A stretch of 64,000 nucleotides of DNA, taken from positions 2,315,840-2,379,839 of the forward strand of contig NC_019780.1 of assembly GCF_000317615.1 (NCBI RefSeq), given 5' to 3'. This stretch comes from Dactylococcopsis salina PCC 8305. GTDB lineage: Bacteria > Cyanobacteriota > Cyanobacteriia > Cyanobacteriales > Rubidibacteraceae. The translations under genes were made by a program, and so were the position numbers. Shown piece after piece: positions 9,093-12,071 of this stretch; the stretch's first letter is position 1; the number at the start of each line of letters is the position of its first letter. Under the pieces are notes generated by a model. The model was not told where the DNA came from, did no database searches, and worked only from the letters and a program-made list of their open reading frames with translations.

Positions 9093-9149
9093 AAAATTGC
9101 TTCCTTGCTAATGAATTTTGCTTTTACTAAACGAGTGACATTAATGATT

Positions 9150-9192
9150 AATTTACAAGCAAGATTTTCTCAATTCCTGTAGCATCAATAAC
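9150..9192 (-). promoter_or_regulatory. Candidate NtcA-activated promoter of the nitrilase operon
   Basis: Read on the minus strand, GTT-N8-TAC (9192 to 9179) is one base from the NtcA consensus GTA-N8-TAC. It is followed after 23 bases by TAAATT (9155 to 9150), which fits the TAN3T -10 element. Class II NtcA promoters place these parts 22-23 bases apart. Transcription would start near 9143, giving a leader of about 50 nt before the MSMEG_0572-like gene. Confidence 0.6.
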
Positions 9193-9364
9193 AGAATATA
9201 AGTTTTATCAAAAGTGATAGTTTAGCAAGGACTTTCCTTAACAAAATGAGCCTATTTCGAGAAGGAAAACGATAAAATCCTACACTGTCGGGCTTAAATA
9301 ACAGTTTGCCTCACCTAGGGAAATCAATAGGGGAGGATCAATCCCTTTGTTGTTAACTAAATTT

Positions 9365-9406
9365 GTAACTAAAACTACATGAAAAAAATCGAGAAACATT
9401 TAGAGT
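9365..9406 (+). promoter_or_regulatory. NtcA-activated promoter of the flavoprotein gene
   Basis: GTAACTAAAACTAC at 9365-9378 is an exact GTA-N8-TAC NtcA box. Exactly 22 bases later comes TAGAGT (9401-9406), an exact TAN3T -10 hexamer. This is the canonical arrangement of a class II NtcA-dependent promoter. A start site near 9413 would leave a leader of about 29 nt before the ATG at 9442. It implies induction under nitrogen limitation. Confidence 0.78.
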
Positions 9407-9441
9407 GCCAATTGAGAGCAAAGAATTAAAAAACAAGATTT

Positions 9442-11916: not shown

Positions 11917-12071
11917 AATGGTATTCTTTGCGGTGATCAGCCGAATTGGTTCTAAATGTTAAGCTAGCAAAATTTTAGATTGAAGAAAGTAGCAAATATA
12001 ACAAATTGTCCGCCACTGTTCGATCGAGCTTCAAATCGGTGATCAAGTTGAAGAAGATTTATAGCAATCCC
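11917..12071. other. Upstream region of the LuxR gene, no gene seen
   Basis: This is the presumed promoter side of the GAF-LuxR gene. It contains a TATAGCAATCCCAAATGA stretch (near 12060) that matches one end of the CTATAGCAATCC inverted-repeat element at 33.2 kb. I see no convincing coding frame or RNA gene here; the small open frames are low in coding character. Confidence 0.5.

Follow-up and report, generated by a model that had tools for sequence, protein, structure and literature searches.

Back-to-Back NtcA-Type Promoters with LuxR-Type Palindromes as the Probable Control Region of a Cyanobacterial Nit1C Cluster

Described Systems and the Nit1C Cluster of Dactylococcopsis salina

The presumed role of Nit1C genes is to recover nitrogen from nitriles or from cyanide. 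In Synechocystis, the protein Sll0783 is present already before nitrogen starvation and increases upon it; it is needed for polyhydroxybutyrate storage, the function of the cluster being unsettled (PMC3901256, excerpts). Ammonium was found to repress the sll0783 operon and sll0782 (log2 change −1.58, wild type), and the repression of the operon was absent in an slr1821 mutant (PMC10094980, excerpts). The gene sll0782 was described as a helix-turn-helix gene with no known function; its mutant belonged to a group of seven in which metabolism had changed most at 48 h (PMC5318462, excerpts). Canonical NtcA-activated promoters carry a GTAN8TAC box centred at about −41.5 and a −10 box of the form TAN3T (PMC3898017, excerpts). 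The literature covered, in part as excerpts and with the main NtcA regulon studies outside it, contained no statement of NtcA or LuxR-protein control of Nit1C.

The Nit1C clusters of Pseudomonadota and Actinomycetota contain the same enzyme families in a similar order; unlike in the cyanobacterial clusters, the NtcA module was found in none of their loci (0/8 non-cyanobacterial Nit1C loci). A gene of the PLP-dependent aminotransferase family lies just upstream of proteobacterial Nit1C in all six annotated records (L113 and L115−L119), and this gene is possibly a MocR-type regulator. Control of Nit1C may have been swapped between lineages. In the plasmid collection, the sll0783-type gene was found in 515 plasmid records, 374 of them named Klebsiella.

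The stretch of D. salina PCC 8305 DNA analysed here (the window, 64 kb in its whole length) encodes seven Nit1C hallmark families scoring over their NCBIfam cut-offs, namely MSMEG_0572, Nit6803 nitrilase, MSMEG_0568, MSMEG_0567 GNAT, sll0787, MSMEG_0570 and MSMEG_0569. On the minus strand, the MSMEG_0572/Sll0783 family gene (8610−9092, TIGR04044) is the first gene of an operon whose remaining genes, assigned by family matches, occupy 4049−8531: the Nit6803 nitrilase (7500−8531), the MSMEG_0568 radical SAM protein (6425−7519), the GNAT protein (5873−6409), the sll0787-type AIR synthase-like protein (4916−5866), a DUF1348 protein (4433−4906) and MSMEG_0570 (4049−4339). The spacing of these genes suggests that 4049−9092 is a single transcript. 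The plus strand carries the MSMEG_0569 family flavoprotein gene (9442−10671, TIGR04046), which is adjoined by a minus-strand gene (10804−11916) for a regulator with Pfam GAF_2 and GerE domains, hereafter GAF-LuxR. An MFS transporter and a carotenoid oxygenase-type gene stand beside the cluster (1211−4052) and do not seem to be Nit1C members, because they were unmatched in the other loci scanned. A short plus-strand ORF (933−1205) is built of repeats of about 17 residues of the SRLGGESRNPTLSSLP type.

NtcA-Type Modules in the Intergenic Gap and in Relatives

The flavoprotein gene (start 9442, plus strand) and the sll0783-type gene (start 9092, minus strand) are separated by a gap of 349 bp. Facing the flavoprotein gene, the NtcA-type box GTAACTAAAACTAC (9365−9378, plus strand), an exact GTAN8TAC, is followed after 22 bp by the −10 box TAGAGT (9401−9406); facing the operon, the box GTTATTGATGCTAC (9179−9192, minus strand), one base off the consensus, is followed after 23 bp by TAAATT (9150−9155), both −10 boxes being of TAN3T form. 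With 41.5 bp from box centre to start, transcription is predicted to begin near 9413 on the flavoprotein side and near 9144 on the sll0783 side. The initial annotation had placed one NtcA-type module on each strand of this gap, and both were recovered at the places claimed, with the same spacers and far beyond chance. The minus-strand box is non-consensus (GTT, spacer 23), and GTA is also missing on the operon side in five divergent relatives (L003, L038, L043, L073 and L112). Box, spacing, an encoded NtcA (the genome encodes one above the NtcA_cyano family cut-off, 367.8 bits) and conservation before orthologues, which are among the marks of an NtcA-activated class II promoter, were found. 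No Rfam element was found between 8500 and 10000 of the window.

Both the window and shuffled sequence served to estimate how often the module arises by chance. A GTAN8TAC box by itself means little, because five were found in 64 kb vs 6.9 expected. The strict module (spacer 22−23) occurs only once in the window with both strands counted, at 9365, and there are nine loose modules in 64 kb (two on the plus strand and seven on the minus strand), a loose module being defined as GTN10AC with A3 or T12, 21−23 bp and TAN3T. When the 349-bp gap was shuffled 5000 times with dinucleotides preserved, 7 shuffles gave a strict module on the plus strand, 6 gave loose modules on both strands and 118 gave loose modules on either strand. 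It is very improbable that the boxes are chance matches with a plain sigma-70 promoter on each side: GTAN8TAC alone is indeed common and one sigma-70-like match was found on the minus strand (9173−9144), but the latter is at chance level (1 found, 1.8 expected) and the modules are conserved across the class. A sigma-70 promoter in the gap was rejected on this match count, and plain chance for the modules was rejected on their conservation in relatives and on the gap shuffles.

Conservation was evaluated in named cyanobacterial loci, the best 80 of 520 relatives from one scan, to which the window and a Synechocystis 6714 plasmid locus were added to give 82 (L082, the same site as L015, was omitted). 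Upstream regions that were shorter than 150 bp, contained N or had an unclear start were excluded, so that 80 flavoprotein and 59 sll0783-type upstreams of at most 350 bp remained. In this set (best 80 of 520 plus 2), the loose module was found upstream of 77/80 flavoprotein and 54/59 sll0783-type genes and the strict module upstream of 66/80 and 48/59, respectively, whereas 200 shuffles gave means of 1.64 (largest 5) and 1.26 (largest 6) loose modules. The upstreams of other ORFs of the same best 80 of 520 plus 2 (n = 427) yielded 10 loose and 2 strict modules, and 1/230 operon-internal genes had the module. Spacers behind the strict box peaked at 22 and 23 bp (32 and 35; 27 and 22); spacers of 21 or 24 bp did not occur, and 20 bp occurred three times (best 80 of 520 plus 2). 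When sorted by arrangement, again in the best 80 of 520 plus 2, the loose module preceded the flavoprotein gene in 29/30 divergent loci, 28/29 codirectional loci and 20/21 loci where an sll0783-type gene was not found; it preceded the sll0783-type gene in 30/30 divergent and 24/29 codirectional loci. Conservation of both boxes in other cyanobacterial Nit1C clusters, which the initial annotation had put forward as its check, was thereby borne out, both modules being present in 28/29 divergent loci with two usable upstreams (best 80 of 520 plus 2), with Prochloron (L052) as the exception. The module was missed before the flavoprotein gene in L010, L052 and L055 and before the sll0783-type gene in L035, L053, L061, L069 and L078; in the last three, only about 120−160 bp separate the end of the flavoprotein gene from the sll0783-type gene that follows, so that both genes may be on one transcript.

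A spaced-trinucleotide count ranked GTA-N8-TAC first in 50 sll0783-type promoters and second, after the overlapping GTA-N9-ACA, in 69 non-redundant flavoprotein promoters. For the glnA positive control, 30 genomes were searched with 26 matches at the cut-off, and the same scan found the NtcA module in 26/26 glnA upstreams. The Nit1C promoters are similar to NtcA class II promoters of the glnA, nirA and urtA type in the sequence GTAN8TAC, the distance of 22−23 bp and TAN3T (PMC3898017, excerpts). The commonest −10 boxes are TAATCT and TAAGGT in Nit1C and TAGGAT in glnA. In D. salina itself, eight nitrogen-gene loci were scanned, the ORF taken as the PII gene being the wrong one, and a complete module was found at glnA only; the amt loci have the box without TAN3T at 20−25 bp, and neither module nor box was found upstream of ntcA.

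In the class-wide sample of 195 genomes drawn evenly, the sll0783-type gene was present in 82, and the module was found upstream of it in 66/82 (window included). The module occurred in 63/73 genomes with the GAF-LuxR protein, so that 10/73 regulator-bearing genomes miss it, and in only 3/9 without the protein; the NtcA geometry is therefore common, not universal. Five genomes of 1.6−3.0 Mb (G115, G170, G196, G209 and G277) have the sll0783-type gene without the GAF-LuxR protein and without an upstream NtcA module, and control of the gene must differ in these genomes because both are missing.

Judged from sequence, NtcA very probably controls both gene halves. The reading of the initial annotation, in which NtcA acts on both sides of the gap, gains support from the conservation of the modules, the encoded NtcA and the glnA control. 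It was incomplete in having missed a LuxR-type palindrome located between the two NtcA boxes as well as the co-inherited GAF-LuxR gene, and the mechanism therefore probably involves more than NtcA.

The LuxR/GerE-Type Palindrome and the GAF-LuxR Gene

The alignment of promoters on the NtcA box brought out a second conserved block, the palindrome CTANCNNTANNGNTAG, which starts 29 bp before the box. With at most 2 of 10 mismatches, it stands exactly at −29 in 46/77 flavoprotein and 24/53 sll0783-type promoters (best 80 of 520 plus 2). A further copy (consensus ACCTATCGATTTCGATAGGT) is found in many promoters, mostly at −91 to −95 or −103 to −106 (about 64 bp beyond the first), and both copies are present in 34/76 flavoprotein and 23/52 sll0783-type promoters (best 80 of 520 plus 2). 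The distal copies cluster near −93, −104 and −115, in steps of about one helical turn. The 20-bp consensus in relatives, ACCTATCGATATCGATAGGT, is a full palindrome, and its arms (CCT-N12-AGG and CTA-N10-TAG) also emerged unprompted from the spaced-trinucleotide count. The lux/las/rhl-type boxes of LuxR-family regulators are inverted repeats of about 20 bp of the CT-N12-AG form, and the Nit1C palindrome shares this length and form; its occurrence together with a LuxR/GerE regulator, as for a LuxR/GerE-type operator, was also found, with exceptions. Unlike in the lux/las/rhl systems, the candidate regulator has a GAF sensor and no autoinducer domain, and an NtcA site accompanies the box.

A 16-bp matrix was trained on 76 flavoprotein promoters without the window and was scored on the sll0783-type promoters of the class sample. 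A score of at least 6 at −29 (±1) was reached by 53/63 class promoters with module and regulator and, at each of five shifted offsets, by 0/63; among class promoters with the module but without the regulator, 0/3 reached a score of 6 at −29. In random sequence, 99% of scores were below 3.9 and 99.9% below 8.6. This palindrome distinguishes the Nit1C promoters from those of glnA, 26/26 of which lack it at −29 (score ≥ 6); a 16-mer scoring at least 10 was found elsewhere within 450 bp in 3/26. A 20-bp matrix was built from 36 distal copies, with the 99% shuffle level in 400 bp as threshold. It exceeded the threshold in 60/73 regulator-bearing and 2/9 other class genomes, 13/73 regulator-bearing genomes being without a strong palindrome in 400 bp; only the position-fixed −29 test uses different DNA, since some genomes are common to the named and class samples and the 400-bp stretches of divergent loci overlap the training DNA.

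In the window, the palindrome ACCTAGGGAAATCAATAGGG (9313−9332, core 9315−9330) was the top match in 64 kb of the 20-bp matrix trained without the window, with a score of 19.3 against 10.6 for the runner-up. It has CCTA-N10-TAGG arms with 12 of 20 positions self-complementary, and it precedes the flavoprotein NtcA box by 50 bp instead of 29, a difference of about two helical turns. A weaker palindrome on the operon side (9203−9222, minus-strand core CTATCACTTTTGATAA) lies 28 bp before the NtcA box and scores 6.4 with the 16-bp matrix and only 5.7 with the 20-bp matrix. An explanation by NtcA alone, with the palindrome irrelevant in this species or of other purpose, would agree with the completeness of both modules in the window, with window palindromes that are weak or away from the usual −29 and with glnA being driven without a palindrome. 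It is nevertheless held to be unlikely, given that the palindrome outscores all else in 64 kb with a matrix whose training excluded the window, that its position is fixed in relatives and that the GAF-LuxR gene here adjoins the flavoprotein gene. The palindrome is very probably a real LuxR-type operator. A small terminator-like hairpin of six pairs (9329−9347, plus strand) covers the last bases of the palindrome and precedes the flavoprotein promoter.

Homologues of GAF-LuxR were found in 20 of the 80 named loci (best 80 of 520) and in Synechocystis 6714, where the gene also adjoins the flavoprotein gene. At E ≤ 1e-20, matches were found in 96/195 class genomes and in 69 of the 77 named genomes searched, some of the latter being partial (best 80 of 520). 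Orthologues were defined by E ≤ 1e-70 (77 genomes), a limit set after seeing the gap from 6e-72 to 3e-33; the class search scored the ten best first-look candidates per genome, with misses possible. GAF-LuxR was present in 73/82 cluster genomes vs 4/113 others (both genes in 73, sll0783-type gene alone in 9, regulator alone in 4 and neither in 109; Fisher p = 5e-38, uncorrected for ancestry). The distance from the regulator to the sll0783-type gene is at most 10 kb in 27/73 genomes; in 12 the regulator is farther off along the same contig and in 34 it is on a different contig, so that linkage alone does not explain the pairing. Among the four regulator-only genomes, an AIR-synthase-like gene was found near the regulator in L292 and a DUF1348 gene in L291. 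Within the window's family, the full-length regulator was found in the own genome only, and a fragment with 74% identity occurs in G004, where the cluster is absent.

Strong palindromes were also present where no regulator was detected, in L016, L051 and L058 of the named loci and G258 and G180 of the class sample, and several GerE-domain matches were obtained in each family genome searched. Both observations would suit a real operator with a binder other than GAF-LuxR, for example another GerE-type regulator, but the exceptions come from MAGs or fragmented assemblies, the regulator is co-inherited with the cluster (the above test, uncorrected for ancestry) and the regulator-less L015, L052 and L069 are also without a strong palindrome, so another binder is considered quite improbable. 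Incomplete assemblies may be behind some of the regulator/palindrome exceptions. Two further regulator-less loci were less clear, L040 having no strong palindrome before the flavoprotein gene and a borderline one before the sll0783-type gene (9.5 vs 9.3), and L037 an intermediate one. Binding of the palindrome by the neighbouring GAF-LuxR protein is the probable arrangement, as far as motif and gene distribution indicate.

In the AlphaFold model of GAF-LuxR (mean pLDDT 82.8, pTM 0.49), the N-terminal domain matches GAF structures and is followed by an alpha/beta region and then by a helical domain at the C-terminus; the PDB sequence relatives of the protein, mostly LuxR/NarL-type regulators, cover the C-terminal part. 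The GAF-domain structure matches of the model suggested no ligand. Autoregulation of GAF-LuxR through the palindrome found little support, with scores of at least 10 in 4/61 upstreams vs 3.2% of shuffles and many starts approximate. A loose NtcA module was found within 500 bp of GAF-LuxR in 7/61 upstreams; in five of these, 85 bp separate the box centre from the approximate start. In some lineages, NtcA may therefore act on the regulator gene as well. In the window, the GAF-LuxR gene has its own loose module (GTTATATTTGCTAC/22/TAGCTT) at 11961−12002 on the minus strand. The layout in Synechocystis 6714, together with the Synechocystis gene order, which presumably places sll0782 at the position of the GAF-LuxR gene, suggests that sll0782 is the counterpart of the window's gene. 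Sll0782 of Synechocystis sp. PCC 6803, a putative regulator, shows ammonium repression like that of the operon (PMC10094980, excerpts).

Proposed Control of Nit1C and Its Significance

The gap probably consists of back-to-back composite promoters, in which putative NtcA class II activation is combined with a pathway-specific regulator in one Nit1C regulon. Under nitrogen shortage, NtcA would occupy 9365−9378 and 9179−9192, replacing the −35 element, and would turn on transcription both ways from the −10 boxes 22 and 23 bp off, as in class II promoters. A second regulator, most likely GAF-LuxR (10804−11916), would sit on the palindromes at 9313−9332 and, more weakly, at 9203−9222, and its GAF domain would sense a pathway-specific signal. 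GAF-LuxR is probably a co-activator, because the palindromes of relatives precede the NtcA box by a constant 29 bp and by distances in helical steps; that it acts in this way together with a pathway ligand is a suggestion with about an even chance.

GAF-LuxR could well be the missing Nit1C-specific regulator of cyanobacteria, one that senses a small molecule tied to the pathway, which may be a nitrile, a cyanide adduct or the product of the cluster, and that works with NtcA through lux-type operators in helical phase. If true, Nit1C would behave as an AND-gate with nitrogen starvation as one input and substrate or product as the other. These results provide a sequence-level account of the control of the sll0783 cluster that is valid in most of the class, with both halves as one NtcA regulon, and they name a specific regulator and operator as candidates for Nit1C control. 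The ligand of GAF-LuxR would point to the substrate or product of the Nit1C pathway.
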